Shown: piece by piece, positions 7,078 to 39,477 of the stretch
Layout: each line of letters starts with the position of its first letter
Numbering within the stretch: position 1 is the stretch's first letter
The notes under the pieces: generated by a model
Seen by the model: the letters and a program-made list of their open reading frames with translations, nothing else
Databases searched by the model: none
What the model was told of the DNA's origin: nothing
Position numbers and translations under genes: made by a program
Assembly: GCA_903893625.1 (NCBI GenBank)
Contig: CAITND010000223.1
Location: 1 to 39,645, forward strand
Reading direction: 5' to 3'
Source: an uncultured Oscillatoriales cyanobacterium
GTDB lineage: Bacteria; Cyanobacteriota; Cyanobacteriia; Cyanobacteriales; Microcoleaceae
DNA length: 39,645 bases

Positions 7078-8511
7078 ATGTCTGAAGATTTAATTTTATT
7101 TTGGCATCGACGGGATTTAAGAATTGATGATAATTTAGGACTGACAAACACTTTTCAATCTAGTTCTAAAGTTGTCGGTCTATTCTGTTTAGATCCCAAT
7201 ATTTTAAACCGAGATGATATTGCCCCGGTAAGGGTTACTTACATGATCGGCTGTTTGCAATATCTCCAAGAACAATATCAAAAACTGGGGAGTCAATTAT
7301 TAATATTAGAGGGAAAACCTCAAGAAAATATTCCTAAATTAGCCAGAGAATTAAATGCTAAAGCCGTTTACTTTAATTTAGATATTGAACCCTTTGCTAG
7401 ACAACGTGATCGCACCGTTTCAGAAGCATTAAATTCCGTTGGAATTATCACAAAAACTACTTGGGATCAGTTACTCCATTCTCCTGATCAAATTTTAACC
7501 CAATCTCAAGAACCTTATAAAGTTTATACTCCCTTTTGGCGCAATTGGAATATTAAATCCAAAGCCAAACCTAAACCCGCTTTCTCTCAAACCTTAATCG
7601 GTTTAACAGAAACCGAACAAGAATTAGCCAAAACAATGGGTGTAATTTCTTTACCTTCTGCTCAAGAATTAGGCTTTATTTGGGAAAATCCCTTAATCTT
7701 AGAACCCGGAGAAATAGCCGCCCAAGAACGCCTAGATGAATTTTGCGATCGCGCCCTCTATGAATATGATGAACAACGAAATTTTCCGGCTATTGATGGC
7801 ACCTCTCAACTCAGTGCAGCCTTAAAATTTGGGGTAATTAGTATTAGAAAGGTTTGGGAAAAAACCGTTGAAGCAATGGAAAATTCTCGCAGCGATGAAA
7901 GCAGAAAGCAAATTCAATCTTGGCAACAGGAACTCGCATGGCGGGAATTTTATCAACACGCTTTATATCATTTTCCTGAATTAGAATTAGGGCCGTATCG
8001 AGAACCCTTTAAAAGCTTTCCTTGGAACAATAATGAACAACATTTTCAAGCCTGGTGTGAAGGCAAAACAGGTTATCCTATTGTTGATGCAGCAATGCGA
8101 CAATTAAACGAAAGTGGATGGATGCACAACCGATGTCGGATGATTGTTGCTAATTTTTTAACTAAGGATTTAATTATTAATTGGCAGTGGGGAGAAAAAT
8201 ATTTTATGCAAACCTTAATAGATGGAGATTTAGCCGCTAATAATGGGGGATGGCAATGGACTGCTTCGAGTGGGATGGATACGAAACCTTTAAGGATTTT
8301 TAACCCCGCCAGTCAAGCTCAAAAATTCGATCCAGAAGCCGAATATATTCGCCAATGGTTGCCGGAATTAAGAAGTTTAGAAATAGAACAATTAGTCACT
8401 GGAAAAATATCATCCCGCGATCGCAAATTCTGCGGTTATCCCGAACCTCTTGTTGATCATAATCAACAACAACGCTACTTTAAACAACTCTATCAAGCCC
8501 AAAAACTTTAA
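7078..8511 (+). CDS. phrA: Class I CPD deoxyribodipyrimidine photolyase, probably 8-HDF type
   Basis: This flavoprotein uses blue/UV-A light to split cyclobutane pyrimidine dimers. The 477-residue protein starts with the antenna-domain signature [16 protein letters not shown] and ends with the FAD-binding helical domain: [64 protein letters not shown]. These are the class I photolyase signatures and include the Trp and Asn residues around the flavin. The antenna chromophore is probably 8-HDF, as in other cyanobacterial enzymes; this is inferred from phylogeny. It follows the Nudix gene by 51 bases. Confidence 0.95.
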
Positions 8512-11325: not shown

Positions 11326-11455
11326 ATTCAGCACCTCTGTTGCTATATGACTAGAACTGGGTGCTATTGTAGTGCTTTGTGCTAATCCCGTGTCATGGGT
11401 TGTATCTTCCGTTGTTTCTGGGCTGATCTCTTCGGTGGTCTCTTCCTCAATAATT

Positions 11456-12784
11456 ATGATTCCAAATCGATCTTGTTACTGGCTGAAAAATGCTCGTGTT
11501 CCAGTTTGTGTGATCAGGGATAGGTCGGAGGCGATCGCAGCTTCAGCAAATTCCGATGGGATGGCGTTAGTTGACATTTATATTGCGTTGGGAATTATTG
11601 ATCAGATCGTTATTTCGGGAAGTGTTAAGTTTGGTGACACCACAACGGTAGATTTACAGGGAAGACAGATTTGGCCCTGTTTTGTGGATGTTCATACTCA
11701 TTTAGATAAAGGTCATATTTGGGAACGTTCACCGAATCTAAACGGAACCTTTGACGATGCGTTAACGGCGACTTTTAAGGATGAAGAAATCTGGACAACG
11801 GAAGATGTTTATCGTCGGATAAAATTTGGTTTAAACTGTAGTTATGTGCATGGAACAAAAGCCATTCGGACTCATTTAGATTCAGCCGGACGGTTAACTG
11901 ATTTGAGTTGGGATGTGTTTAAAACTCTCAGAAAAGAATGGGAAAATCGCTTAATTTTGCAAGGGGTTGCTTTAGCTTCTTTGGATTATTATTTAACGCC
12001 AGAAGGGGAAATTCTCGTTAATAAAGTGGCAGAATCAGGAGGAATTTTAGGCGGTGTAGCTTATATTAATCCTGATTTAGATCGGCAAATTGCAAGAGTT
12101 TTTGAAATCGCCAAAGATCGGAAATTAAACTTAGATTTTCATGTCGATGAAAATGGAGAAGTAGAATCAATTTGTTTACAAAAAATTGCTGAAGCAGCGT
12201 TAAAATATAATTTTGAGGGTAAAATTGTTTGCGGACATTGTTGCAGTTTAGCCGTACAACCGGATGATGTTGTTCAAAAAACCCTAAAATTAGTCAAATC
12301 AGCCGGAATTGGAATTGTCAGTTTACCGATGTGTAATCTCTATTTACAAGATCGTCAATATCATCAATCTAAATATCCAAAAACCCCACGCTGGCGAGGA
12401 ACAACCTTAGTCCATGAATTAAAACAAACCGGGGTTCCCGTTGCGTTTGCAAGTGATAATTGTCGTGATCCGTTTTATGGATTTGGCGACCATGATGGGT
12501 TAGAAGTGTTTAAAATGGCGGTAAGAATTTGTCACTTAGATCGACCGTTTGAAGATTGGTTATGTACGGTAACAAAAACTCCAGCAGATTTGATGGGTTT
12601 ATCGGATATCGGACGTATTGGTGTTGGACTGGCGGCGGATTTTATTATTTTTAAAGGTCGTTATTTGAGTGAAATCTTATCTCGTCAACAGAGCGATCGC
12701 CTTGTAGTTAGAAATGGTAAAATATTAGAGGATAAATTACCCGATTATGCAGAATTAGATGATCTGATTTTCCATCACCCTTAA
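11456..12784 (+). CDS. Cytosine deaminase-like metal-dependent amidohydrolase
   Basis: The 442-residue protein belongs to the CodA branch of amidohydrolases, which deaminate cytosine or related ring compounds. Metal and catalytic positions are visible: FVDVHTHLDK (His80, His82), DFHVDENGE (His229, Glu232), CGHCCSLA (His261) and FASDNCRDPFYGFG (Asp334). The C-terminal beta-sandwich (LAADFIIFKG, RNGKIL) is normal. The actual substrate cannot be told from sequence. The frame is open upstream to a GTG at 11372, but those residues (VVSSVVSGLISSVVSS) are low complexity, so I start at the ATG at 11456. The last 268 bases are duplicated at 17855-18122. Confidence 0.88.
   Translation: MIPNRSCYWLKNARVPVCVIRDRSEAIAASANSDGMALVDIYIALGIIDQIVISGSVKFGDTTTVDLQGRQIWPCFVDVHTHLDKGHIWERSPNLNGTFDDALTATFKDEEIWTTEDVYRRIKFGLNCSYVHGTKAIRTHLDSAGRLTDLSWDVFKTLRKEWENRLILQGVALASLDYYLTPEGEILVNKVAESGGILGGVAYINPDLDRQIARVFEIAKDRKLNLDFHVDENGEVESICLQKIAEAALKYNFEGKIVCGHCCSLAVQPDDVVQKTLKLVKSAGIGIVSLPMCNLYLQDRQYHQSKYPKTPRWRGTTLVHELKQTGVPVAFASDNCRDPFYGFGDHDGLEVFKMAVRICHLDRPFEDWLCTVTKTPADLMGLSDIGRIGVGLAADFIIFKGRYLSEILSRQQSDRLVVRNGKILEDKLPDYAELDDLIFHHP
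12502..12769 (+). repeat. 268-bp direct repeat, upstream copy (deaminase 3' end)
   Basis: Aligns without gaps to 17855-18122, offset 5353 bases. The two copies bracket the whole kinase pair. Confidence 0.95.
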
Positions 12785-12899: not shown

Positions 12900-15800
12900 A
12901 TGAGTGATAAACCTACCTACACCATTCTAATTGTAGACGATAGCCCAGAAGATAGAGAAAGTTTTTGTCGCTATTTATACGAAGAAAAAAGCTGCTACTA
13001 TCAAATTTTAGAAGCGGAATTGATTAGTCAAGCATTGGAGATTTGTGATCGGACTCTACCGGATCTGATTCTGTTGGATTATCTATTACCCGATGAGGAT
13101 GGATTGGTATTTTTGCAGGAATGGCAAAAACGCTATAGAAATAGCATTGTCCCCGTGATCATGTTAACAGGACAGGGAAACGAAACCATTGCTGTCGAGG
13201 CTATCAAAAGAGGTGCACAGGATTATTGGGTCAAAGGGAAATTGAGCAGTTCTGTGGTTCGCCAGAGAACTCAGTCCGTATTACAACAGTTACAATTAAA
13301 ACGGCAAATCGCCCGTCAACAAGAACAGCAGTATTTAGTTAATAGTATTGCCCTGCGAATTCGTGAATCTCTGCGACTAGAACAGGTATTACAAAGGACT
13401 GTGGAGGAAGTGCGGGAGTTTCTCCAGACTGATCGGGTTTTAATCTATAAATTTTTGCCTGATTTCAGTGGGGTGATGGTAGCAGAATCCGTATTACCGA
13501 CCTATCGGGTCTGTTTAAACCTGCAAGTCGAAGATGTCTGTTTTGGGGAAAACTATCTGCAACCCTATTGCCAAGGTAGAGTTTTCGTAGCCTCAGATAT
13601 TGACGTAATGGAGCTCACTGAATGCCATCGTGAGATGTTAAAAGACTTTGAGGTTAGGGCTAATTTGGTCGTGCCACTCTTATTAAGTAACAACAAGACT
13701 TCAAAAACCAGTGGTTCAATCTCCAAACCAGAAACTGAGTATAATTTATGGGGGTTGTTAATCGCCCATCAATGTGATCGCCCCCGTCAATGGCAAAATG
13801 ACGAAATCGATTTGTTACAGCAATTAGCGTTACAACTGGTAATCGCCATCCAACAAGCAGAAATGTATGAACGGGTAGAGACAGAACTCTATCAACACAT
13901 AGATGCTGAATTGCAGGAACGCCAACGGGTGGCGGCGGAATTTCGCGCCTTGGTAGAAAACGCTACGGATATTATTTATCGCATTGATCTCGAAATGCAG
14001 TATCTCTACTTTAATCCAGCCATCGAGAAGCTAATGCAACAACCTGCGAATAACTTAATTGGCAAGACCCCGCAGGATTTAGGATTTTGTTCAGAGATTA
14101 TTGCCTTATGGCGTACTACCCTCGATCAAATCATTGAGACAAAAACTCAAGAAACAATTGAACATCCGTTTCCTGATTTGAATAGCCCGAATTGGTTTCA
14201 AATTCGTATTGTCCCCGAATTTAATGAAGCCGGAAAAGTCCTTTCATTTCTATGTATTGCCCGCGATATTAGTAAACAGCAAGCGGCACTCCGTGAACGC
14301 AAAAAAATACAACAACAACTTCAACAACTCAACCAAGAACTCGAAGCCCGAGTTGAACAACGAACCGCCGAATTAAAAGCAAGTCAACGTTTTATTCAAA
14401 GCATTACTGATAATACACCCAATATTATTTATATTTATGATCTTGAGGAACAGCGCAATATTTACTGCAATCGTGGGATACTTGATATTTTGGGGTATTC
14501 CCCTGGGCAGATCCAAGCGATGGGAAATTCATTATTTATCCATCTCACTCATCCCGATGATTTAGACACGATAGGGGCTTATCAGAACAACTTACAAAAT
14601 CTCCAGAATTCTGAAAAGCGAAACTGTGAATATCGGATGCGAAATGTCAACGGAGAATGGCGCTGGTTACTGAGTCGGGATGCTGTCTTCTTACGCAACA
14701 ACGATGGAACGATCAAGCAAATTGTTGGTACGGCTCAAGATATTACTGAACGTAAACAATCTGAAGAACAATTGCGAAATCTTTCCGAGCGATTGTCCTT
14801 GGCGATTAAATCTGGAGGGTTTGGGATTTGGGAGTGGGATATTTTGCCAGACCGACTGATCTGGGATCAGCGAATGTATGAACTCTATGGGTTAGAGAGG
14901 TCAGAGTTGCCAGAAACCATCTATCAAACCTGGGTAAACGCATTGTATCCTCTGGATCGAGAAATGGCTGAAACTGCGATTCAAAAAGCTCTCCGGGGTG
15001 AGGAGGAATACAGCCCAGAATTCCGAGTGGTTCATCCTAATGGTTCAATCCGATACATCAAAGCTTCTGCCTTAATTCAACGGGATAATTATGGAGAACC
15101 GCAACGAATGATAGGGGTTAACTTTGATATTACCAGTGCTAAGGAAGCGGAAAAACAACTGCGGATTCTCTCCGACCGATTAACATTAGCCATCGAATCA
15201 GGAAGGTTTGGGATTTGGGAATGGGATATCCGCCACAATACTCTGATCTGGGATCAGCGAATGCGTGAACTTTATGGGGTCGAAAAGTCTCCATCCTTTC
15301 AAACTTGGCTCAATAGCTTACATCCTGATGATCAAGAGTTTATGAAAGCCGTGATTCAAGCTTTGGATCATCAACGAGAAGTCAATACTGAATTTCGAGT
15401 GATTCATCCTGATGGTTCGATCCAATATATCAAATCCCATGCGTTAATCCAACACAACGAACATGGAGAAGCGCAACGGATGGTCGGTCTTAACTTTGAT
15501 ATTACCAGCACTAAAGAAGCAGAAAAAAAACTGCGACAGATGAACGAACAATTGACCCTAACGAATGCAGAACTGGATCGAGCTACCCGGCTTAAAGATG
15601 AATTTTTGGCGAATATGAGCCACGAATTACGAACCCCCCTGAATGCGATTTTAGGAATGACGGAAGGGTTACAGGATGGAGTCTTTGGGAACCTCTGTGA
15701 ACAACAGAAACAAGCAGTGAATAGTATTGCTCAAAGTGGTCATCATCTGTTATCCCTGATTAACGATGTTCTGGATCTCGCTAAAGTAGAATCTGGTGAA

Positions 15801-16772
15801 TTAGAATTACAGTTAGCTCCAGTATCCATTACTTACCTGTGCAGAAATAGCTTAACGTTTGTTCGACAACAGGCCTTAAAGAAAAATATTCAACTGACAA
15901 CCGACATCCCAGAGTGGTTAGCGGATATTGTGGTAGACGAGCTTCGGATTCGTCAAGTTTTGATTAATCTACTGAATAATGCCGTTAAATTTACTCCTGA
16001 TGGCGGCAGTATCAAATTAGAGGTAAAAGCGATATCGTCAGCCCCGCAGAATTTATTACAATTCTCGGTCATCGATACAGGTATTGGCCTAACCCATGAA
16101 AATGCCAGTAAATTATTCCAACCGTTTATCCAAATTGACAGTAGCCTTAATCGTCAGTATAGTGGTACAGGTTTAGGATTAGCATTGGTGCGTCGTTTAG
16201 TCGAACTTCATCAAGGAACGGTTGAAGTGACCAGTGAGTTAGGCAAAGGTAGTTGTTTTACGGTTTGCTTACCCTACATTCTCAGCCTAGCACACCCGGT
16301 TAAAGCCCCTATATTCTCTCCTGATCCCAGGATTCCTGAAGAATTGCAGCTATCAGAATCTACGACAATTTCTACGGTTTCCCACAAACCAAGCCGTTCC
16401 TCAACTATTTTGTTAGTTGAAGATAATGAGCTAAATATTACTACAATTTCCAGTTATTTAAGTAGTAAAGGTTACAAAATTGAAGTCGCAAAAGATGGGG
16501 AAGAAGGTGTTAGACTTGCTAAGTCTTTATCTCCCGATTTAATTTTGATGGATATTCAACTTCCAAAAGTAGATGGACTAGAAGCCATTCGTCAGATTCG
16601 TACTGAACAACGGTTAACTTCTACTCCGATTATTGCCTTAACTGCATTAGCGATGACAGCAGATCAAGAGAAATGTTTCAATGCCGGAGCGAACGATTAT
16701 CTTTCTAAGCCTGTAAAATTAAAACAACTGGTCAACAAAATTGAACATTTATTGAATCTAAGGAGATCTTAA
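12900..16772 (+). CDS. Hybrid histidine kinase with DXCF-type cyanobacteriochrome GAF: REC-GAF-PASx4-HisKA-HATPase-REC
   Basis: This 1290-residue protein has an N-terminal receiver (phospho-Asp60 in LLDYLLP) and a GAF domain at about 155-325. Four PAS regions follow (about 345-460, 500-620, 630-750, 757-875), then HisKA with His908 (MSHELRTPLN), HATPase (LINLLNNAVKF, DTGIG, GTGLGLAL) and a C-terminal receiver (Asp1218, Lys1270). The GAF is of phytochrome/cyanobacteriochrome type: DRVLIYKFLPDFSGVMVAESV, then DVCF (Asp212, Cys214) and CH (Cys242, His243) before EVRANLVVPLL. The CH pair is the canonical bilin attachment site and DXCF supplies the second cysteine of the dual-cysteine class, usually blue- to green-absorbing. 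Bilin binding and colour are predictions. No DNA-binding domain is present, so output goes through phosphotransfer. The next kinase starts 4 bases later. Confidence 0.93.
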   Translation: MSDKPTYTILIVDDSPEDRESFCRYLYEEKSCYYQILEAELISQALEICDRTLPDLILLDYLLPDEDGLVFLQEWQKRYRNSIVPVIMLTGQGNETIAVEAIKRGAQDYWVKGKLSSSVVRQRTQSVLQQLQLKRQIARQQEQQYLVNSIALRIRESLRLEQVLQRTVEEVREFLQTDRVLIYKFLPDFSGVMVAESVLPTYRVCLNLQVEDVCFGENYLQPYCQGRVFVASDIDVMELTECHREMLKDFEVRANLVVPLLLSNNKTSKTSGSISKPETEYNLWGLLIAHQCDRPRQWQNDEIDLLQQLALQLVIAIQQAEMYERVETELYQHIDAELQERQRVAAEFRALVENATDIIYRIDLEMQYLYFNPAIEKLMQQPANNLIGKTPQDLGFCSEIIALWRTTLDQIIETKTQETIEHPFPDLNSPNWFQIRIVPEFNEAGKVLSFLCIARDISKQQAALRERKKIQQQLQQLNQELEARVEQRTAELKASQRFIQSITDNTPNIIYIYDLEEQRNIYCNRGILDILGYSPGQIQAMGNSLFIHLTHPDDLDTIGAYQNNLQNLQNSEKRNCEYRMRNVNGEWRWLLSRDAVFLRNNDGTIKQIVGTAQDITERKQSEEQLRNLSERLSLAIKSGGFGIWEWDILPDRLIWDQRMYELYGLERSELPETIYQTWVNALYPLDREMAETAIQKALRGEEEYSPEFRVVHPNGSIRYIKASALIQRDNYGEPQRMIGVNFDITSAKEAEKQLRILSDRLTLAIESGRFGIWEWDIRHNTLIWDQRMRELYGVEKSPSFQTWLNSLHPDDQEFMKAVIQALDHQREVNTEFRVIHPDGSIQYIKSHALIQHNEHGEAQRMVGLNFDITSTKEAEKKLRQMNEQLTLTNAELDRATRLKDEFLANMSHELRTPLNAILGMTEGLQDGVFGNLCEQQKQAVNSIAQSGHHLLSLINDVLDLAKVESGELELQLAPVSITYLCRNSLTFVRQQALKKNIQLTTDIPEWLADIVVDELRIRQVLINLLNNAVKFTPDGGSIKLEVKAISSAPQNLLQFSVIDTGIGLTHENASKLFQPFIQIDSSLNRQYSGTGLGLALVRRLVELHQGTVEVTSELGKGSCFTVCLPYILSLAHPVKAPIFSPDPRIPEELQLSESTTISTVSHKPSRSSTILLVEDNELNITTISSYLSSKGYKIEVAKDGEEGVRLAKSLSPDLILMDIQLPKVDGLEAIRQIRTEQRLTSTPIIALTALAMTADQEKCFNAGANDYLSKPVKLKQLVNKIEHLLNLRRS

Positions 16773-16775
16773 CCA

Positions 16776-17852
16776 ATGCAACAAACACCGATTATTCTAA
16801 TTATTGATGATGAACCCGATAATTTCGATGTCATTGATAATTTACTGGCAAACGAAGGCTATGAATTAGGTTATGTTTCTAACGTCAAACAAACTCTGAA
16901 ACTTCTCGAAACTTCTCAACCTGATGTAATTTTGCTGGATGTGATGATGCCAGAAATTAATGGCATAGAATTCTGTAAATTATTTAAAGCCAATCCCCAA
17001 TGGTCACATATTCCAGTGATTATGGTGACAGCCCTTTCAGGTAAAGAAGATTTATCCCAATGTTTAGAGGCGGGTGCTGATGATTTTATTAGTAAACCCG
17101 TCGATGGAACTGAACTGCGAGCTAGAGTACGTTCAATGTTACGCATTAAGCAACAGTATGATCGAATACAAACGCTGCTGCAATTGCGTGAAGACATGGT
17201 GAACATGATAGTACATGATCTTAGAAATCCTCTTACGGGTATTGTTCTTTCAACCGCGTTACTGAAAAAGTCAGGGTTATCACCGGAAAAAAAGGAGAAA
17301 AAAATTCAACAAATTGAGGCAAGTACCGCTAAATTACAACTTATGATTGATAGTTTATTGATGATGGCTAAGTTAGAATCGGGTAAGATGATGCTCAATT
17401 TTACAACAATTGACTTAGGTGAACTTTGTACGTCAGTTATCCAAGATTTTGAGTTGATCGCCCATCAGAAAAACATTACAATTGTTCCAGATTTACCTGC
17501 TCTGGGGGGTAACGTTTCAGTAGATGCTTTTATCTTTCGCCGAGTCATTGATAATTTACTTTCTAATGCGATTAAGTTTTCCCCTAGTGAAACCCCGATC
17601 TTATTACAAGCAAAATATTTAGAAAATGGGGGGGCTACAGTGAAATTGATTGATTCAGGGCCAGGTGTTACTGAAAAAACCCGAAAAACACTTTTTGAAA
17701 AATATGAGATTGGTACAATTCGGGAAGGAGTGAGTCAAATTGGTTTAGGTTTAGCGTTTTGCAAAATCGCAATAGAAGCCCATGGCGGTAGTATTTCCTT
17801 GGAAGATCATCACCCAAAAGGATCTATTTTTACAATTCATATTCCTGGGTAA
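16776..17852 (+). CDS. Response regulator-histidine kinase fusion (REC-HisKA-HATPase)
   Basis: The 358-residue protein has an N-terminal receiver (Asp9/10, phospho-Asp55 in LLDVMMP, Lys107 in SKPVD), then a kinase with His147 in VHDLRNPLTG, an N box VIDNLLSNAIKF, DSGPGV and GLGLAFCK. It has no membrane segment and no DNA-binding output. Receiver-first kinases like this often take phosphate from, or are gated by, another kinase; the gene begins 4 bases after the hybrid kinase with AAGGAG inside the upstream coding end, so they are surely cotranscribed and probably form one relay. Its stop codon is immediately followed, in the same frame, by a fragment of the deaminase gene. Confidence 0.94.
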   Translation: MQQTPIILIIDDEPDNFDVIDNLLANEGYELGYVSNVKQTLKLLETSQPDVILLDVMMPEINGIEFCKLFKANPQWSHIPVIMVTALSGKEDLSQCLEAGADDFISKPVDGTELRARVRSMLRIKQQYDRIQTLLQLREDMVNMIVHDLRNPLTGIVLSTALLKKSGLSPEKKEKKIQQIEASTAKLQLMIDSLLMMAKLESGKMMLNFTTIDLGELCTSVIQDFELIAHQKNITIVPDLPALGGNVSVDAFIFRRVIDNLLSNAIKFSPSETPILLQAKYLENGGATVKLIDSGPGVTEKTRKTLFEKYEIGTIREGVSQIGLGLAFCKIAIEAHGGSISLEDHHPKGSIFTIHIPG

Positions 17853-18215: not shown

Positions 18216-19688
18216 ATGCTTATGAGAATGTATGATAGTCTATATATTTTTAAAACCTTAATTCTTCGAGTTGTGGCGATCCTAATTTTTACTGAGATCA
18301 TTGCAGGTGATATTCATGCCTCCGATGCTCAATTGCTATTACCAAACCGAAGGTTAACGCCTTCAGACCCTCAAGTTTCACCCGCCAATCTACAGGTTGA
18401 AGCCTATACTTTGGGAGCCGGGGATTTGCTGCGGGTTGATGTTTTAGATGTACCCGAATACAGTGGTGAATATTTAATCTTAAGTGATGGCACAATTGGT
18501 TTACCGTTAATTGGAAATATTTCGGTTACTGGGTTAACGGTTTTACAACTGGCTGAGATTATTGCTAAAAAGTATCAGCCTTATGTTCAAAAACCCATTA
18601 CCACCGTCACAATTATGGCACCTCGACCGATGACTATTGCTGTTTCAGGAGAAGTAAATCACCCTGGAACCTATACCATGAGCTTATCAGTTCCCAGTGG
18701 TGCTACTCGTCAATTTCAGTTTTATAAAGTCACCCAACTGTTACAACAAGCGGGAGGAATTACCCAATCGGCGGATATTAGTCGGGTTAGAATTGAACGA
18801 AATATCCCTCAAAAACAGTCAATTACAGTTAACTTAAAACAGTTAATTGAAACGGGTGATCTCAGTCAAGATCTGGTGTTGCGAGATGGAGATCGGATTT
18901 ATGTTCCTCAAGCCGAAACCATTGATGCTTTAAGTATTCGTCAACTCAATTCTGCCAGTTTTGCACCGCAAAAAATTGATCCCTTTCCCATTATTGTTGT
19001 TGGAGAAGTGTTTAATCCGGGGACTCATATCGTGGGAGAAAAAGCCACTGAAACCAGACAACCCCCAACGGTGACAGAGGCGATTAAGTTAGCGGGAGGA
19101 ATTACTCCCTTGGCAAATATTCGGGAGATTCAACTGCGACGTCTAACGCAAAATGCAGAAGAACAGGTTGTTAATATTAATTTATGGGAATTGTTGCGAA
19201 CTGGAGACGTAAAACAGGATATGACCTTGCAACCGGGAGACTCGATTTTGATCCCCAAAGCAACAGGAATTAATCCCACGGAAGTTGCCGAGTTAGGAAA
19301 AGCAAGTTTTTCTCCTCATACCATTCAAGTATCAGTAGTGGGAGAAGTTAAAAATCCGGGTACTCTGGAAATTCCCCTCGATACCACCTTAAATGAGGCA
19401 ATATTAGGGGCGGGAGGATTTAATTTAATTCGCGCTCGTCAAAATCAAGTTCAATTGCTACGTTTAAATCCTGATGGCACCGTATCACAGCGAGATATAA
19501 AGGTAAATTGGACAGAAGGAGTTAATGAAGCTTTAAATCCAATTTTGCAACAGAATGATGTGATTATTGTCGGGCGATCTACTTTAAGCAGTACAGGGGA
19601 TACTTTGGAAGAAGCCTTTCGACCTTTGCAATCCTTCATAAATCTGTTATCTATTATGAATACGATTACACGACTGTTTATGAATTGA
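18216..19688 (+). CDS. Polysaccharide export protein (Wza/OPX-like) with three SLBB domains
   Basis: OPX proteins form the outer-membrane or periplasmic channel that lets capsular or extracellular polysaccharide out. The 490-residue protein has an N-terminal hydrophobic segment (about 12-35), a poly_export domain (about 63-135: YTLGAGDLLRVDVLDVPEYSGEY ... GTIGLPLIGNI), and three SLBB-type domains, each starting with a near-identical turn: GEVNHPGTY (145), GEVFNPGTH and GEVKNPGTL. There is no lipobox cysteine, unlike enterobacterial Wza. Several in-frame ATGs (18216, 18222, 18228) are possible starts. It heads an operon with a BY-kinase (38-base gap) and a Wzy-like polymerase. Confidence 0.94.
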   Translation: MLMRMYDSLYIFKTLILRVVAILIFTEIIAGDIHASDAQLLLPNRRLTPSDPQVSPANLQVEAYTLGAGDLLRVDVLDVPEYSGEYLILSDGTIGLPLIGNISVTGLTVLQLAEIIAKKYQPYVQKPITTVTIMAPRPMTIAVSGEVNHPGTYTMSLSVPSGATRQFQFYKVTQLLQQAGGITQSADISRVRIERNIPQKQSITVNLKQLIETGDLSQDLVLRDGDRIYVPQAETIDALSIRQLNSASFAPQKIDPFPIIVVGEVFNPGTHIVGEKATETRQPPTVTEAIKLAGGITPLANIREIQLRRLTQNAEEQVVNINLWELLRTGDVKQDMTLQPGDSILIPKATGINPTEVAELGKASFSPHTIQVSVVGEVKNPGTLEIPLDTTLNEAILGAGGFNLIRARQNQVQLLRLNPDGTVSQRDIKVNWTEGVNEALNPILQQNDVIIVGRSTLSSTGDTLEEAFRPLQSFINLLSIMNTITRLFMN

Positions 19689-19726
19689 AATCAATTGTTT
19701 ATGATCAATAGCGATAGGTTAAAACA

Positions 19727-21907
19727 ATGGTAAACCGAGAATCAATCGATTTAGATTTTAGTCGGTATTTACTGACTTTGAAACAGCGATGGTTTATTGT
19801 GATCGGAATTTTTATGTTGTTTGTAGGTTTAGCCTTGTATGGAACTCGGTTTCTCAAGCCAACCTATGAAGCAACAGGAAAGCTATTATTTGAAGTGGAT
19901 CGAACTTCATCCTTAGCCGGAATTGGTAAAGGATTGGGAGAGTTAAAAGCTTTATTATCCGATCAAACGCCTTTGAGTACGCAAATTGAGATTATGCAAT
20001 CGAGTCCTTTATTAGAAAAAACGATTAAAATTCTGAAATTAACGGATTCCCAGGGGAATTTGATTGAACCGGGTTCTCTGAGAAGTCAACTCAAAATTAA
20101 GATTCTGGGTGGGACTGATATTGTTGAAATTTCCTGTAGCAGTAAACAAGCCAAAGAAACCGCCGATGTGATCAATACATTGATGGGGGTTTATATGTCA
20201 GTTGTCGATCAAAATAATCGCAAGGATGCTGCTAAAGCTCGTGATTTTATTGTGGAACAACTTCCTGCGGTTCAGAAAGAAGTGTTTAAAGCTGAACAAG
20301 CTTTAAGAGATTTTAAAGAAAAAAATCAGGTTTTGAATTTAGAGCAAGAGTTTGGATCGGCGGTGAATGGATTATCGGATTTGAATCGACAAATTACAAC
20401 GCTTGAATCTCAACTCAATGGAATCAATAGTTTATCAAAAGCTTTAGGAAATCAAGTCGGTTTAGATTTAGAAGAAGCGATCGCATTGAATACCTTAAGT
20501 CAATCACCTTTGATGAAAAGTACATTAGTGGAATTAGAAAAAGTCGAATCGGATTTAACAAATGAAAGAAAACGGTTTCGGGATCAGAATCCTAGAATTA
20601 TTGCTTTAATTGCTAAAAAAGAGGTTCTAACAGCCACCTTACAAAAGCAAATTGATCAAATTTTAGGAAAAAATATTTCCCTTCTCAGAGGATTATTAAC
20701 TAGTCAAGGGAATAATAACTTACTGCAAGAATATGTAAATACAGAAACCCAACGTCTGGATTTAACTCAGCAGTTAAATTCTCTTTATGAATCTCGTGCG
20801 GCTTATCAAAAACGAGCCAGTATTTTACCCAAATTGGAACAACAACAGAATGAACTAGAACGCAAAGTTCAGGTAGCACGAGTGACCTATGAAACCTTGT
20901 TAAAAAATTTAGAAGAAGTTCAAGTGGCAGAAAATAAAAGAATTGATAATACCAGAATTATTGAAAATGCTGTTGTTCCTGAAAATGGGAAAACTCAAAA
21001 ATCCCAACTCCTTGTACTAGGAGTGATGTTAGGTTTAATTTCTTCAACCGCATCGGTTTTATTATTAGATATTTTAGATAAATCCGTTAGAAGCACTCAA
21101 GAAATTAAAAATGTATTTGATTATAAGCTAATTGGGATTATTCCATTTATTCCCAAAAATCGCTCTTTTAAATTTAGCCGAATCAGAAAAAATCCTTTTG
21201 TACCTGTGATCGAACCATCGAATTCTTTAGTCAGTGAACTCTATCGGATGATGCAGGCAAATTTAAGGTTAATGACTTCAGATAAAACGTTAAAAGTGAT
21301 TGTTGTCACCAGTGCCGTGACCCGGGAAGGAAAATCAACAATTTCCGCGAATTTAGCGGCGAGTATTGCTCAATTAGGATATCGAGTTTTATTAATTGAT
21401 GGGGATATGCGTCAACCGTTTCAGCATCAAATTTGGGGGTTAGTTAATACCCCTGGATTATGTGATATTTTAGCAGAACCCCTAGAATTGAGTTCTGTAA
21501 TTCGTCAAGGCATGGAACGGTTAGATGTGTTAACGGCGGGTCTCATATCTCCCAATCCTTTAGGATTATTAGATTCTCAAAATATGGCTTTATTAATCCA
21601 GAATGTTTCTAAACGGTATGATTTTGTAATTATCGATACGCCGCCCTTAATTGTAGCGGCAGATGCTTTAATTTTAAGCCAAATGGCGCAGGGGATTTTA
21701 TTAGTCAGTCGTCCTGGAGTGATTGATCGAGAAACGGCGATCACAGTCAAAGAAATTTTAGACCATTCTGGTCAACGAGTTTTGGGTTTAGTCGTTAATG
21801 GGATTAATAAAAATGAGTTAAATCAGTATTTTCATCATGCCAAACGTTATGCTTCCCCAGCCTCAAAAAATTCTGATTTTTATCATCATCCTTATAAAAG
21901 AAATTAA
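19727..21907 (+). CDS. Wzc-like polysaccharide co-polymerase / BY-family tyrosine kinase
   Basis: This inner-membrane protein controls chain length and export of polysaccharides through cycles of tyrosine autophosphorylation. The 726-residue protein has a Wzz domain framed by membrane segments at about 23-40 and 428-448, with a long coiled-coil periplasmic part between (about 180-400). A cytoplasmic BY-kinase follows, with Walker A SAVTREGKS (529-537), Walker A' LLIDGD (555-560) and Walker B VIIDTPP (634-640). The C-terminal tail carries four tyrosines (NQYFHH, RYAS, DFYHHPYKRN), the usual autophosphorylation cluster. Kinase and co-polymerase are fused in one chain, as in Proteobacteria and cyanobacteria. 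Confidence 0.95.
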   Translation: MVNRESIDLDFSRYLLTLKQRWFIVIGIFMLFVGLALYGTRFLKPTYEATGKLLFEVDRTSSLAGIGKGLGELKALLSDQTPLSTQIEIMQSSPLLEKTIKILKLTDSQGNLIEPGSLRSQLKIKILGGTDIVEISCSSKQAKETADVINTLMGVYMSVVDQNNRKDAAKARDFIVEQLPAVQKEVFKAEQALRDFKEKNQVLNLEQEFGSAVNGLSDLNRQITTLESQLNGINSLSKALGNQVGLDLEEAIALNTLSQSPLMKSTLVELEKVESDLTNERKRFRDQNPRIIALIAKKEVLTATLQKQIDQILGKNISLLRGLLTSQGNNNLLQEYVNTETQRLDLTQQLNSLYESRAAYQKRASILPKLEQQQNELERKVQVARVTYETLLKNLEEVQVAENKRIDNTRIIENAVVPENGKTQKSQLLVLGVMLGLISSTASVLLLDILDKSVRSTQEIKNVFDYKLIGIIPFIPKNRSFKFSRIRKNPFVPVIEPSNSLVSELYRMMQANLRLMTSDKTLKVIVVTSAVTREGKSTISANLAASIAQLGYRVLLIDGDMRQPFQHQIWGLVNTPGLCDILAEPLELSSVIRQGMERLDVLTAGLISPNPLGLLDSQNMALLIQNVSKRYDFVIIDTPPLIVAADALILSQMAQGILLVSRPGVIDRETAITVKEILDHSGQRVLGLVVNGINKNELNQYFHHAKRYASPASKNSDFYHHPYKRN

Positions 21908-21918
21908 AGAAATTGACA

Positions 21919-23208
21919 ATGAAAGAAAAACCGAAATCATTGCTCGAAAAAATAGAAACCGTTTTTAATATTTTAGCTATTACTCATTATACTGCTGATT
22001 GGGTTCCCTTAATTGTATCAGGGGGAGCTAGTGAAGGAGATGGTTCGGTTTATCCTACCAATTTAGCAATGAATATAGCCCTTTATTTTTTAACTTATTT
22101 GGGAGCTATTTTCTTCTTAATATTACGCTGGAAAAAAGCACTCTATTTTATTAGTAAAGATAGAATTATTATTACAATTGTCGGCATTGCTATTGCTTCT
22201 ATAACCTGGTCTGATGATCCCCCAACAACAATAAAAACTTTAGTCTCTTTAATTGGAACCACCATTTTTGGAATCTATCTTGGATCTCGATATTCGCTGA
22301 AGGAACAAGTTAGAATCTTAGGCTGGACATATTTATTTATCTTGATTTTAAGCCTACTATTTATTGGCGGATTACCTCGATATGGAATTATGGGGGCTAT
22401 TCATAGCGGAGCATTTCGAGGAATTTTTACCCATAAAAATCTTTTTGGAAGATTTCTCGCCCTGAGTATGATTGTGTTCTTAATGTTCAAAACTATTTTG
22501 CCACCAAAAAAGACTTGGATTGCCCAATTCTGTATCGGATTAATTCTGATTCTTTTACCTTTAGTTCGCTCAACAACCAGTATGATTAATACAGGGATTT
22601 TGTTGATGGCGTTATTAGCATATCAGACCTTTCGCTTCCGCTATGTGATCATGGTTCCGGCATTTTTAAGTTTAGCAACGCTCTCCGGTGTTCTCTATTA
22701 TTTATACACCTATTATTCCAGTTTAGTGTTTTCTTCCTTGGGCAAAGATCCCTCTTTTTCGGGTCGGACAGACCTATGGAAGTATGCTTGGGATATGATC
22801 GAAAAACAATTCTGGTTGGGTTATGGTTGGGGTGCATTTTGGAGAGGGTTAGGTGGCCCATCTGGATACATCATTCGGATGGCCCAATGGCAGGTTCCTA
22901 ATTCCCACAACGGTTGGATAGATTTGTGGTTAGATTTAGGTTTTGTGGGAGTATTTGCTTATGCTGTTGGATTTGCAATCAATTTAATCCGTTCCCTTTG
23001 GTTAGCTCGTTACACCACAACATTATATGGTCTTTGGCCTTTAATTTATTTAACCTATACCCTGATATCAACCTTGACTGAAACCGGATTAGTTGCTCGC
23101 AATAGTATTTTTTGGGTATTATATATTGCCATTTCTATTACAATGGCTGAACCCGATTTAGAGGAAAATCATCGGGTTGAGCCGAAAGCATTAGAATCTA
23201 AACCTTAG
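21919..23208 (+). CDS. O-antigen ligase / Wzy-type polysaccharide polymerase
   Basis: The 429-residue protein is a polytopic membrane protein with roughly ten membrane segments and the Wzy_C/O-antigen ligase pattern: FRGIFTHKNLFGRFLAL before the large periplasmic loop, then SGRTDLWKYAWDMI, GYGWGAFWRG and NSHNGWIDLWLDLGFVGVF. Such proteins polymerise lipid-linked repeat units or ligate finished chains. As third gene after OPX and Wzc-like genes it is most likely the polymerase of the same EPS pathway. No flippase or glycosyltransferase genes are adjacent, so those must be elsewhere. I chose the ATG at 21919 over the TTG at 21913. Its 3' end overlaps the convergent 23198-23866 gene by 11 bases. 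Confidence 0.92.
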   Translation: MKEKPKSLLEKIETVFNILAITHYTADWVPLIVSGGASEGDGSVYPTNLAMNIALYFLTYLGAIFFLILRWKKALYFISKDRIIITIVGIAIASITWSDDPPTTIKTLVSLIGTTIFGIYLGSRYSLKEQVRILGWTYLFILILSLLFIGGLPRYGIMGAIHSGAFRGIFTHKNLFGRFLALSMIVFLMFKTILPPKKTWIAQFCIGLILILLPLVRSTTSMINTGILLMALLAYQTFRFRYVIMVPAFLSLATLSGVLYYLYTYYSSLVFSSLGKDPSFSGRTDLWKYAWDMIEKQFWLGYGWGAFWRGLGGPSGYIIRMAQWQVPNSHNGWIDLWLDLGFVGVFAYAVGFAINLIRSLWLARYTTTLYGLWPLIYLTYTLISTLTETGLVARNSIFWVLYIAISITMAEPDLEENHRVEPKALESKP

Positions 23209-33735: not shown

Positions 33736-36700
33736 ATGAGAAATTTTACCCAATTCCGCCAAATTCGGAGACGGTTTATCTTCATTTTTCTCTTTATCTT
33801 AACTCTGGTGGGATGTCGCATCATCAGTCATTCCCCGGTTAGCGAAGTCATCCCAATGGCGGCTGATTTACCCAAACCGCAACTTCCGAACTGGATTGAA
33901 GCCATTAATCCCTTGGGTGAGAGTCCAGAATTGAGCCAAATTCATGTTATTTTTAAACACCCTTTAATTCCGGTTGAAAACTTAGATAGTTCAGGACAAA
34001 AACAACTTTTAAACAACTTTGAGATTACTCCAAGAATACCCGGTGAATTTCGGTTTTTAACCCCAAGAATGGTGGGATTTCAAGCCGATAAAGCTTTACC
34101 CTTAGCTACTCGTTTACAAGTCACAATTAAAAAAGGATTAGCCGATTTAAACCAACACCAATTAGACCAGGATATCGCCTGGACATTTGCCACAGAACCG
34201 ATAAAATTATCCAATTTACCCGGAAGCAAAGATCAACCCGGTTCCTTAGATAATCCCCTGGGGTTAAATCCTCAACTCAAATTTAATTCTAATGTAGAAT
34301 TAGATTTAAACTCTTTAAAACAACACTTACAACTGATTTCTGTAAAAACAAATCAAGGGATTTCGATTGAGGTTAAACAAGCAGAATCAGAAGATAATAA
34401 AACCCCGATTAAACCCGACGCTGAATTTAATCCTGCTGTTCAAACCTGGGAATATATTGTTACTCCCAAACAACAATTACAAACCGCTACCCAATATCAA
34501 TTTAAAATCACACCAGGGTTACGTCCGGCTGCGGGAAATTTAGAGACTCAAGTTGAGATTTCTAGCTTAATTAACACCTATGATACGTTAAAATTAATCA
34601 GTTTAGAACTTCCTGGTAAAGCCAGCGTAGAAGGAACATCAGGACGGTTTGTAACCGGGAACCCACGACTGCAATTTAATAATGGAATCATTGCAGAATC
34701 AGCCCTCAAAAATATTACCATTCAGCCTGCACCCAAACCCGATATTAAAGTCATCCAAGCCTATAATAATAATGACAGTGTAACTCTCAATCCTTGGGCA
34801 TTAGAACCTCAAACCAATTATACCATTACGATTGGTGCAGAACTCAAAGATCAATTTAATCAGAAATTAGGAAAACCCGTTACCCTTACTCATAAAACTG
34901 GAGATTTAACTCCTGATATTTCTGTCCCTTCAGGATTGAATATTTTCCCCTTTCAACAGAATTTAGAACTGAATATTTCTACCTTGAATTTACCCGAATC
35001 TCAATATCGAGCAGCTTATCAAGTTGTGCAACCAACGGATTTAGTTTATACCGATACGGCTTACCCTAGAACCGACGGAAAACATCTGTTACTTCCCCCA
35101 GAAAACTGGACTACTTTTGCCGTTTCTACCCCGAAAAATAACATTCAAGAAACCTCGATTAATTTACGAGAAAAATTAGGGGGAAATACGGGACTGTTAG
35201 CTTATGGAGTCACGGCAAAAACAACCCAATATCAACAAGAAGATCAACAAAAATGGAGTGAACCGCAATTTTATGGACTGGTACAGCTAACGAATTTAGG
35301 AGTCTTTGCTCAATGGTTTCCAGAGTCAGGATTAGTACGGGTTCATCACTTAGATAAGGGTTCTGTTGCTGAAGGCGTAACCCTTGAAATTTATCCCTCT
35401 CAACTCGATGCAAAATCCTATCCTAAACCTCAAGCTTGTGCAACGGGAACTACCGATACTCAGGGAATGTTACTGTTGAATTCTGAACAGTTACAACAAT
35501 GTATGAAGGGGAAAAGGTTTGCCAAAGCACCAGAATTATTAGTAATTGCTAAAGAAGGCAAAGATTGGGCATTTACTCGAACATTTTCCAATAGTGGAGC
35601 TTACGGTTATGGAATTGATACCAATTGGGAAGACCAGCAAATCCTATCACGGGGGGTGATTTTTTCAGACCGTCAACTTTATAAACCCGGAGAAAAAGTT
35701 GCATTAACAGGTGTGGCGTATTCCTTAGAAAATGGTAACTTAAAACCGAATAAAAATGAAAATTATACGGTGACATTAGAAAATCCTAAAGGACAAAAGC
35801 AAGAATTAGGAGACTATCAAACCAATGAATTTGCGACATTTTCAGTGGAATTACCGTTAGCAGAAAATCAACTGTTAGGCAATTATATTGTTCGGGGAAA
35901 AGACAAAAATGGGGTGGAACTTTCGGGTAACTTCCGCGTTGCTGAATTTAAACCCCCCAATTTTAAAGTAGACCTGAATTTAGATCAAAAATTTGCCAAA
36001 ATTGGAGAAACGATTACGGCAAATGCTAAGAGTGAATATCTATTTGGTTCTCCCGTTGCGGAGGGTGCAGCTAAATATTATGTGACTCGGACAGCAACGG
36101 ATTTTATGCCCAAAGGATGGGAAAATTATTCCTTTGGTCGTCAATGGTTTTGGCCCGAAGAAAAACCCAATGTTTCTGATAGTGTATTGCAGGAAAATCA
36201 ACAATTAGATGCACTGGGTCAGGGAAGTAAAACCGTTACTGTTGCTCAAGATTTACCCTATCCAATGACCTATCGAGTGGATGTAGAAGTTACGGATATT
36301 TCTAATTTATCCGTTGCCAATTCTCAATCCTTTATTGCCCTTCCCAGTCAGCGTTTAATTGGGTTAAAAACGCCGTTTATTGGGGAAGCAGGTAAAGCTT
36401 TACCCATTGATGTAATTGTTACTGATTATCAAGGAAAACCCTTAGAAAATGTTGGGGTGAATTTGCAATTGCAAAAAATGGATTATAGCCGCGTTACACG
36501 GGTTGTAGAAGGAGGACAAACCAATAAAAACCAAATTCAATATCAAACGGTTTCTCAAATTGATGTTAAATCGGGTCAAAAGGAACAAACAGTTTATTTG
36601 ACCGCCCCAGAGTCCGGTTCTTATCGAATTCGCGCTAATTTTAGCGATGAAAATAGTGAAATTACAGCGACAGATTTAAAAATTTGGGTGACAGGAAATC

Positions 36701-39477
36701 AATTAGTAAACTGGGGAGGAGTTGATAAAAATCGATTAGAAATTAAACTGAATAAAACCACCTATAAACCCGGAGAAACTGCAACCGCTTTAATTCAATC
36801 TCCTTATGAAGCCGGAGAATTATATTTTGCAGTGGTACGCGATAAACCTCTGTATCAAACGGTGATTCAAGTTAAAGGAGGTGCGCCCGAAATTCAGTTT
36901 CAAGTCACGCCAGAAATGTTACCCAATGCGGCAGTTGAAGCGGTATTAGTCCGACAAGGAAAACCTATTTCTGAACTCGAACCGGGTAGTTTAGAAAATT
37001 TAGCTAAAATTGGGTTAACACCGTTTAAGATTAACCTCGAAGATCAATATCTGCAAGTACAAGTTAATCCTCAACAGGAAAAGCTAGAACCAGGTTCTGA
37101 ACAAACCTTAAATCTGACTTTAACGGATACCAAAAATCAACCCCTTCGCGGACAATTTACCGTGATGGTGGTGAATGATTCCGTTTTACAACTGAATGGT
37201 TATCGTCCTCCAAATTTAATCGAAACGGTCTATGCTGAACAACCCATTCCTACAAGATTTAGTGATAATCGTCCTGCGGTTATTTTAAATCAAATGGCAT
37301 CTCCTTTAGCAAAAGGTTGGGGTTATGGAGGCGGTTTATCGACGGCGACAGCTAATCCTCGAATTCGTAAAGAATTTCAAGCATTAGCCTTTTATAACGG
37401 TTCAATTGTGACGGATAATCAAGGAAAAGCAACGGTTAATTTTAAGCTTCCTGATGATTTAACGACGTGGCGAGTGATGGTAGTTGCAACGGATGGAAAT
37501 CTCAAATTTGGTTCGGCTGAAACCACATTTATGACGACTCAAGCGTTAATTTCTAATCCGATTTTACCCCAATTTGCTCGTCCTGGCGATCGCATTTTAG
37601 CGGGATTATCGATTACCAATTTAACCGGAGAAAAAGGCAACTTAAATATTACGGGAACCGTTAATGGCGGGATTCAATTTTCCCCTGGAAACGCCAATCA
37701 ACAAACCTTAAAAACCAAAGCTGAAGCCGGAACAAACGCCTATCGATTTCCCATTTTAGTTAAACAAGCGGGTAACGCTCAAGTTCAGTTTAAAACGGAA
37801 TTTAATGGCAAATCCGATGGGTTTGAAGTGCCTTTAGAGGTTAAAACATTTAACGTCATAGAACAAGTTGTTGAGTCAGGACGCACCACTAATTCCGTGA
37901 CCATTCCCCTGAATGTTAGTAAAAAAGTTGTTCCCGATTTCGGGGGATTAGATATTAATTTAGCCAGTACCCTAATTCCCCAACTAACCGCTTCCGCTCA
38001 ACAGGTATTTAATCAAGAGAAATGGCCGTTTCTCGAACCTGCTATCAGTGAATTAGTCATTGCTGCTAATATGCAGATTTTGGGTAAAAAATACGGTCAA
38101 AATTTCAGTAATTTGCAGTTACCTGAACGGGCTAAAACGGCTTTAGCCGACATTGAAGAATTGCAACAAGAAGATGGTGGAATTGCAGCCTATCCTGGTT
38201 CAAGATTCTCTAGTCCTTTCCTTTCCGCTTATACGGGAGAAGCCTTAGCTCAAGCTCAAAATGCTGGATTTCCTGTTAATTCTCAGGTGATCAATTCTCT
38301 AAAAACCTATTTAACTCAAGGAGTGAATGACCCTGGAAAATATGATTTTTGTACGAATGATAATTGTAAACATGAAATTCGCTTAAATGCGTTAATTGCG
38401 TTGGATGCACTGGGAGATCAACGTAGTGATTTCTTAGATGATATATTGCAAAATTTCGAGAAATTTGATCCTGTTAACCAGATTAAGTTTGTGCGCTATT
38501 TATCTCAATTTCCGAACTGGAAAGCGGATTATAATCGTCTATTTGAGCAAGTGCAAAAACAGATCTATGTCACAGGAAGAACTGCGACTCTAAATTTACC
38601 TCAAGGATATAGTTGGTTAAATTCTCCGACAACGATTCAATCCCAAGGATTACGTTTAGTGATGAACCAAAATCCCCAGTCTGAAACCGTTGATAAACTG
38701 GTACAAAGTTTATTGAATTTGCGTAAAGATGGAACTTGGGGAAGCAGTTATGATAATGCACAAGCGTTAACTGCTTTAGTCGCTTATGCTGAAACCGAAA
38801 CCACACCCCCTAACTTTAATGCTGTCATTAAATTAGGAAATCAAACGTTAGGAGAAACTCAATTCAAAGGGTATAAAGATTCGAGTTATACTTTAAATGT
38901 ACCCATGTCAGAATTACCGAAAGGTAAAAATGATTTAATTTTACAACAGTCTAATCAGGGTAAATTAAATTATTGGGTTGCTTATCGTTATCGTTTGGAA
39001 GGGAATCAACCTGGACGGTTAAATGGGTTAAGAATTACGCGCACAATTCGCCCTGCTAATCAGGATAAAATCTTACAAAGAATTGACCTCAATTCTCCTA
39101 AACAACTACTGAAAGTTATACCCGGACAAGTGTTTGATATCGGTTTAGATATTATTACCGATCATCCGGTTGATCAGGTGATGATTACTGACCCCCTTCC
39201 CGCCGGATTTGAAGCTATTGATGCTAGTTTTAAAACCAGTAATTTAGCATTACAAGCTCAAAAAAGTAGTTGGGAAATTAACTATCAAACGATTTACAAG
39301 GATCGAATTATTGCCTATAGTAATCGTTTGGAACCGGGGACTTATCAACTCCATTATTTAGTTCGATCTGTCACCCCAGGAGAATATTTATGGCCCGGTG
39401 CAGAGGCTAAATTACAATACATTCCCGAAGAATTTGGTCGTGCTGCATCAACAACTTTATTGGTTTCTAAACCTTAG
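33736..39477 (+). CDS. Bacterial alpha-2-macroglobulin-like lipoprotein without thioester
   Basis: This 1913-residue protein has a basic N-terminus, hydrophobic segment and lipobox LVGC (Cys27), so it is probably a lipoprotein anchored to the inner or outer membrane facing the periplasm. Domain order follows bacterial A2Ms: macroglobulin-like beta domains (about 50-990), a BRD-like part (LEIKLNKTTYKPGETATALI), the A2M core (FYNGSIVTDNQGKATVNFKLPDDLTTWRVMVVATDGNL) and an alpha/alpha toroid thioester domain. A final beta domain follows (VDQVMITDPLPAGFEAIDAS). Where E. coli ECAM has GCLEQ, this protein has WPFLEP (residues 1430-1435): the thioester Cys and Gln are gone. The usual companion penicillin-binding protein 1C gene is not visible in the 168 bases remaining. 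Confidence 0.93.
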   Translation: MRNFTQFRQIRRRFIFIFLFILTLVGCRIISHSPVSEVIPMAADLPKPQLPNWIEAINPLGESPELSQIHVIFKHPLIPVENLDSSGQKQLLNNFEITPRIPGEFRFLTPRMVGFQADKALPLATRLQVTIKKGLADLNQHQLDQDIAWTFATEPIKLSNLPGSKDQPGSLDNPLGLNPQLKFNSNVELDLNSLKQHLQLISVKTNQGISIEVKQAESEDNKTPIKPDAEFNPAVQTWEYIVTPKQQLQTATQYQFKITPGLRPAAGNLETQVEISSLINTYDTLKLISLELPGKASVEGTSGRFVTGNPRLQFNNGIIAESALKNITIQPAPKPDIKVIQAYNNNDSVTLNPWALEPQTNYTITIGAELKDQFNQKLGKPVTLTHKTGDLTPDISVPSGLNIFPFQQNLELNISTLNLPESQYRAAYQVVQPTDLVYTDTAYPRTDGKHLLLPPENWTTFAVSTPKNNIQETSINLREKLGGNTGLLAYGVTAKTTQYQQEDQQKWSEPQFYGLVQLTNLGVFAQWFPESGLVRVHHLDKGSVAEGVTLEIYPSQLDAKSYPKPQACATGTTDTQGMLLLNSEQLQQCMKGKRFAKAPELLVIAKEGKDWAFTRTFSNSGAYGYGIDTNWEDQQILSRGVIFSDRQLYKPGEKVALTGVAYSLENGNLKPNKNENYTVTLENPKGQKQELGDYQTNEFATFSVELPLAENQLLGNYIVRGKDKNGVELSGNFRVAEFKPPNFKVDLNLDQKFAKIGETITANAKSEYLFGSPVAEGAAKYYVTRTATDFMPKGWENYSFGRQWFWPEEKPNVSDSVLQENQQLDALGQGSKTVTVAQDLPYPMTYRVDVEVTDISNLSVANSQSFIALPSQRLIGLKTPFIGEAGKALPIDVIVTDYQGKPLENVGVNLQLQKMDYSRVTRVVEGGQTNKNQIQYQTVSQIDVKSGQKEQTVYLTAPESGSYRIRANFSDENSEITATDLKIWVTGNQLVNWGGVDKNRLEIKLNKTTYKPGETATALIQSPYEAGELYFAVVRDKPLYQTVIQVKGGAPEIQFQVTPEMLPNAAVEAVLVRQGKPISELEPGSLENLAKIGLTPFKINLEDQYLQVQVNPQQEKLEPGSEQTLNLTLTDTKNQPLRGQFTVMVVNDSVLQLNGYRPPNLIETVYAEQPIPTRFSDNRPAVILNQMASPLAKGWGYGGGLSTATANPRIRKEFQALAFYNGSIVTDNQGKATVNFKLPDDLTTWRVMVVATDGNLKFGSAETTFMTTQALISNPILPQFARPGDRILAGLSITNLTGEKGNLNITGTVNGGIQFSPGNANQQTLKTKAEAGTNAYRFPILVKQAGNAQVQFKTEFNGKSDGFEVPLEVKTFNVIEQVVESGRTTNSVTIPLNVSKKVVPDFGGLDINLASTLIPQLTASAQQVFNQEKWPFLEPAISELVIAANMQILGKKYGQNFSNLQLPERAKTALADIEELQQEDGGIAAYPGSRFSSPFLSAYTGEALAQAQNAGFPVNSQVINSLKTYLTQGVNDPGKYDFCTNDNCKHEIRLNALIALDALGDQRSDFLDDILQNFEKFDPVNQIKFVRYLSQFPNWKADYNRLFEQVQKQIYVTGRTATLNLPQGYSWLNSPTTIQSQGLRLVMNQNPQSETVDKLVQSLLNLRKDGTWGSSYDNAQALTALVAYAETETTPPNFNAVIKLGNQTLGETQFKGYKDSSYTLNVPMSELPKGKNDLILQQSNQGKLNYWVAYRYRLEGNQPGRLNGLRITRTIRPANQDKILQRIDLNSPKQLLKVIPGQVFDIGLDIITDHPVDQVMITDPLPAGFEAIDASFKTSNLALQAQKSSWEINYQTIYKDRIIAYSNRLEPGTYQLHYLVRSVTPGEYLWPGAEAKLQYIPEEFGRAASTTLLVSKP

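Follow-up and report, generated by a model that had tools for sequence, protein, structure and literature searches.

Does the hybrid histidine kinase encoded in the window (the whole stretch of 39,645 nucleotides that was analysed, contig CAITND010000223.1 of the uncultured Oscillatoriales cyanobacterium assembly GCA_903893625.1) carry a photoreceptor, and what would such a sensor do between a receiver and a kinase? A first-pass annotation of the sequence had predicted that its GAF domain is a dual-cysteine (DXCF) cyanobacteriochrome. The reading frame, which opens with an ATG codon, and its neighbors are listed in Table 1. The domain order obtained with Pfam, REC-GAF-4xPAS-HisKA-HATPase_c-REC, agrees with the description of receivers at both ends and four PAS regions in between. 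The phospho-acceptor and acidic pocket residues of the N-terminal receiver are in place, the kinase histidine is present, and the C-terminal receiver retains E1174, D1175, D1218, T1248, and K1270 in the alignment. The remark that generic annotation would overlook the photoreceptor was fair, as Pfam reports just GAF for that domain; among the 25 NCBIfam matches listed of 165, none scored above its cut-off and none named a photoreceptor. A structural model of residues 1-330 predicted from the single sequence had a mean pLDDT of 39.7, too poor for use.

Table 1. Features of the hybrid kinase gene and of the genes next to it, in window positions.
Feature	Positions	Strand	Basis
Hybrid histidine kinase, REC-GAF(CBCR)-4xPAS-HisKA-HATPase-REC, 1290 aa	12900..16772	+	ORF list, Pfam
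N-terminal receiver, residues 7-125 (Pfam Response_reg 9-112); phospho-acceptor D60 with D13, D14, T90, K112	12918..13274	+	Pfam, PPHK alignment, REC-GAF alignment
Cyanobacteriochrome-type GAF, residues 150-330 (Pfam 160-317)	13347..13889	+	Pfam, alignments
DVCF motif D212-F215, second cysteine Cys214	13533..13544	+	Gap-free TePixJ alignment; kept in the three close same-genus copies found
Predicted canonical bilin-attachment Cys242-His243	13623..13628	+	Alignments
Four PAS regions, residues ~347-460, 497-617, 654-741, 783-864	13938..15491	+	Pfam
HisKA (899-966, H908) and HATPase_c (1013-1125)	15594..16274	+	Pfam, residue check
C-terminal receiver, residues 1170-1282; phospho-acceptor D1218	16407..16745	+	Pfam, residue check
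Adjacent REC-HisKA-HATPase kinase, 358 aa, 3 bp downstream; proposed partner	16776..17852	+	ORF list, Pfam
Upstream amidohydrolase, NCBIfam PRK07583 'cytosine deaminase' above cut-off; no part in the proposed mechanism	11372..12784	+	NCBIfam

The two cysteines were compared with those of characterised proteins by a search of PDB sequences with residues 203-265, 63 residues that include both motifs, as the query. The best four matches (6p58, 2m7u, 4fof/4glq, and 3vv4) have identical TePixJ letters in this stretch and align with the window without a gap, and PPHK was the fifth-best match. Two of these entries, 2m7u and 3vv4, we take to be TePixJ because they match 4fof letter for letter over the two motifs and the residues around them. 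The sequence of 4fof is the same as that of 4glq, named TePixJ in PMC11284453, and the sequence of 6p58 is the same as that of 6upp, named TePixJ in PMC6955287. Over window residues 203-265, the TePixJ motif DPCF lies under DVCF and CH under CH, so that both Cys214 and Cys242 fall in the attachment columns, as predicted from the sequence and as the proposed alignment with a characterised DXCF GAF domain was expected to reveal. The chromophore of TePixJ is bound via C522 and, at C10, via C494 (PMC6955287); the spacing between these two residues, 28, equals that between Cys214 and Cys242 in the window.

The residues named around the bilin of TePixJ are D492, H523, Q526, and N535 (PMC6955287). 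The expectation that the bilin contacts would be in place held for three of them, which correspond to D212, H243, and N255 of the window, and failed for Q526, which is replaced by Met246. Because this site varies among the other DXCF rows compared (Leu, Phe, Val, Ile, or Met), the mismatch was not taken as defining. The window GAF further differs from TePixJ in a longer loop before LWGLL and in its setting, a REC-PAS hybrid kinase, whereas the TePixJ PDB entries are labelled methyl-accepting chemotaxis protein. The alignments with PPHK and with the PDB sequences both indicate a GAF domain of the cyanobacteriochrome type. Judged by sequence, its assignment as a predicted dual-Cys DXCF cyanobacteriochrome is well supported.

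Conservation was assessed in a REC-GAF alignment of 57 rows, consisting of the window, PPHK, and 55 relatives (the best 30 loci at most per search), which were picked by similarity to the window REC-GAF, a choice that favors a shared motif and distance over an unbiased sample. Among these similarity-selected rows, Cys occupies column 214 in 47 and column 242 in 56, Asp occupies column 212 in 46, and the receiver set (D/E14, D60, T/S90, and K112) is complete in 51. A chance occurrence of the two cysteines was considered and is ruled out by these counts together with the TePixJ alignment. The one row in 57 that has lost the canonical Cys demonstrates that the module can lose it, and the window GAF might likewise be a degenerate domain that binds no bilin, the protein being run by its REC and PAS inputs alone. 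We regard this as very improbable, since the domain has both cysteines as well as His243, Asp212, and Asn255, and bilin-pathway families are found in the host genome. The latter contains heme oxygenase in two places, the ferredoxin-dependent bilin reductase family in one, and 12 matches to the phycobilisome family; the host should therefore make phycobilins. Of 38 matches to the GAF query in the same genome, 20 became loci, and these yielded 24 full-length GAF domains. Seven of the 24 have DXCF and the canonical Cys (two of the seven as CY), and the window protein is the only one of those seven for which a REC was detected immediately ahead of the GAF.

The closest described counterpart of the REC-GAF part is PPHK, a multidomain kinase of Leptolyngbya sp. 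JSC-1 whose Pg state absorbs at 562 nm (PMC11480761). Residues 7-325 of the window protein align with it end to end (6oap, E 2.1e-79). In the solved structure of PPHK, as in the window, the REC lies immediately before a cyanobacteriochrome GAF, and the REC-GAF distance is the same. The distance from REC-Lys112 to GAF-Asp178 is identical in 55 of the 57 rows, window and PPHK among them, and the REC-to-GAF distance of PPHK was found in 54 of the 56 REC-GAF modules compared, with the same preference of the sample for shared distance. PPHK has DQYF and lacks the second Cys, in contrast to the DVCF of the window. The existence of such REC-GAF relatives without a second Cys, PPHK included, raises the alternative that the bilin is held via Cys242 alone, that Cys214 forms no bond to C10, and that the domain acts as a single-Cys sensor in the manner of PPHK. 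This is unlikely in view of the Cys found at column 214 in most rows, the DVCF kept in all three close same-genus copies, and the position of the window GAF in a tree of GAF domains, where it did not group with PPHK.

The tree was built from 95 of 98 rows, after removal of two divergent rows and one duplicate domain. On a long branch (0.73), the window GAF clusters with its three close copies (support 99/100). The wider group around them comprises 33 rows, 31 of which are REC-linked and 22 of which have DXCF in the motif table; its support, 86/83, lies under the level starred by the tool and is moderate. PPHK was placed with miRFP670nano (6mgh) and four rows that have Tyr or His for the second Cys, and the window GAF does not belong to this group without a second Cys. 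TePixJ falls outside the window group, beside a very long row. The REC label required seven changes on the tree, whereas shuffling the labels 500 times gave a mean of 30.2 changes and no value as low as seven; REC linkage is therefore clustered on the tree but not of single origin. On these grounds of sequence, the window protein shares the layout of PPHK, and we do not class it as an orthologue of that kinase.

DVCF and CH are both kept in all three close same-genus copies, of which genome G053 has two and genome G051 one. Copies with at least 85% identity over the REC-GAF or its matched part were found in at least two of the nine other same-genus genomes, and this small number was counted against the preferred explanation. 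The G051 copy has no intact N-terminal REC; the REC input is therefore not kept in every relative. The REC-kinase gene that follows the hybrid kinase in the window is found in the same position in G051 and also in G053, where an assembly gap separates the two genes. A similar amidohydrolase gene lies upstream of a G053 copy.

Our preferred reading, to which we give a probability of about 0.75, is a DXCF dual-Cys cyanobacteriochrome in a REC-bearing hybrid kinase that would operate as follows. Cys242 would hold a phycocyanobilin-derived chromophore at ring A, and in the dark Cys214 would add to C10 of the chromophore, giving a blue-absorbing state. Light would break the bond between Cys214 and C10 and generate a longer-wavelength state, for which green is the most likely color judging from the sequence. 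The N-terminal REC would be phosphorylated by some other kinase. Because the REC-GAF distance is the same as in PPHK, phosphate at the REC and light at the GAF probably converge on one signalling helix that would set kinase activity. From the REC-GAF joint the signal would travel along the PAS domains and so reach the kinase. D1218 of the C-terminal REC would receive the phosphate, which might then be handed on to the REC-kinase encoded by the adjacent gene.

The color of the photoproduct is the part of this scheme for which a different outcome is easiest to envisage, and a dual-Cys cyanobacteriochrome that keeps phycocyanobilin or has an orange, yellow, or teal photoproduct in place of a green one is a real possibility, if short of an even chance. 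DXCF photoproducts are described as including green, teal, yellow, and orange (PMC5240096), and the pocket is unlike that of TePixJ at Met193, Met246, and Phe250. Against this stands the description of typical DXCF domains as blue/green sensors with phycoviolobilin (PMC11284453). In teal DXCF sensors, the trapped twist has been associated with Phe at both the beta2 and the helix position (PMC5240096). In the window, the helix position is Phe250 and the beta2 position, a Phe in 6bhn, is Met193; since the beta2 Phe is absent, a teal photoproduct appears less likely. Entry 6bhn is presumably NpR6012g4, and the names of the two Phe positions in it are likewise our assumption.

For the dual input of the preferred scheme, the PPHK study is cited in PMC8584932 for the integration of light and phosphorylation in a dual-sensor kinase with the molecular logic OR. 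This precedent is for a single-Cys sensor, because PPHK lacks the second Cys and groups elsewhere in the tree, as its GAF and that of the window belong to different groups. For the output, LvrA/LvrB of Leptospira provide a case of a kinase activating a REC-DHp-CA kinase (PMC13269768). The likeness to the window is one of gene adjacency, the hybrid kinase gene adjoining a REC-HisKA-HATPase gene, and the window kinase scored 216 bits with the LvrA family NCBIfam NF047465, compared with a cut-off of 1200 bits. Because the gene pair is kept in G051 and G053 and because of the LvrA/LvrB precedent, the neighboring REC-kinase is the obvious candidate for phosphotransfer.

The first-pass annotation regarded this architecture as unusual for a photoreceptor, a view that the comparison overturned. 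In addition to the solved PPHK, at least 51 genomes in a sample of 195 from the order have REC-GAF matches at E <= 1e-55, and at least 18 of 61 genomes from the family have such matches at E <= 1e-50, the window's own genome being included in both; these counts are lower bounds, since the best 36 (family search) or 11 (order search) first-look candidates at most were scored per genome, and some of the order-wide matched places span just part of the REC-GAF. DXCF together with the canonical Cys was present in 27 of the 56 distinct modules, and a further 13 have the canonical Cys and D-X-C followed by another residue. From the 56 REC-GAF proteins, eight with long reading frames and DXCF, all of which also have CH, were selected for a Pfam scan. 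All eight were REC-GAF-...-kinase proteins with PAS domains, the number of which differs; at least one additional REC was detected in four (L083, L056, L094, and L091). The REC-GAF-PAS-kinase layout thus recurs among relatives, and a unique architecture is ruled out by the genome counts, the module motif table, and the Pfam results for the eight relatives. Several other REC-GAF frames, outside the Pfam set, are short (573-712 aa). A scan of genome contigs gave a single locus, on a Verrucomicrobia contig, matching query residues 8-112 only.

Neither the domain class nor the REC-GAF pairing is new. Among the titles and beginnings of abstracts listed, we found no characterised REC-linked DXCF protein. 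A broader proposal, tentative and on balance doubtful, is that REC-coupled dual-Cys cyanobacteriochrome kinases, the window protein among them, form a widespread lineage. Phosphoryl and blue/green signals would meet at a REC-GAF joint of near-constant length, with REC phosphorylation tuning the photocycle or light tuning the phosphate response, and would feed the adjacent REC-kinase, forming a light-phosphate integrator of chained kinases. The comparison adds that DXCF sensors linked to a REC occur frequently in the order and that the REC-to-GAF distance is nearly invariant among the modules compared. The coupling described for PPHK could thus be probed in a dual-Cys sensor.

The gene for the predicted light sensor, a cyanobacteriochrome hybrid kinase, has close copies in two other genomes of the same genus, G051 and G053. 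In G051 (L051 11745-12021, G051:C17), the match to the window begins only at about residue 108, and the DNA between the start of this match and the contig end has no REC match. Judged by eye, the DNA that stands in place of the REC match may be an inserted element. The gene is present twice in G053 (loci L052 and L053), with one copy on a 4285-base contig and extending past both contig ends, and the other interrupted by an assembly gap; the two copies perhaps represent a duplication. The sensor and the downstream kinase gene of the window also adjoin in G051, and likewise in G053, across an assembly gap. Upstream of the G053 sensor copy lies an ORF resembling the window amidohydrolase, and the adjoining ORFs appear unlike the polysaccharide export cluster of the window.

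Among the REC-GAF relatives of the sensor, three loci (L041, L042, and L048) carry DPCL followed by approximately 19 additional residues in the aligned motif region. From the alignment, these relatives possibly represent an insertion variant of the second-Cys loop.

Genes surrounding the predicted light sensor in the window
Feature	Coordinates	Remarks
DNA photolyase-family gene	7078-8511	some 4.4 kb upstream of the sensor gene
Amidohydrolase	11372-12784	scores above the threshold of the NCBIfam family PRK07583 ('cytosine deaminase')
REC-HisKA-HATPase kinase	16776-17852	starts 3 bp downstream of the sensor gene
Polysaccharide export cluster	18216-23208	downstream of the sensor; SLBB/Poly_export, Wzz-GNVR-AAA_31, and Wzy_C genes
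Bacterial alpha-2-macroglobulin family protein	33736-39477	1913 aa

The REC-HisKA-HATPase kinase is a candidate phosphorelay partner of the sensor.
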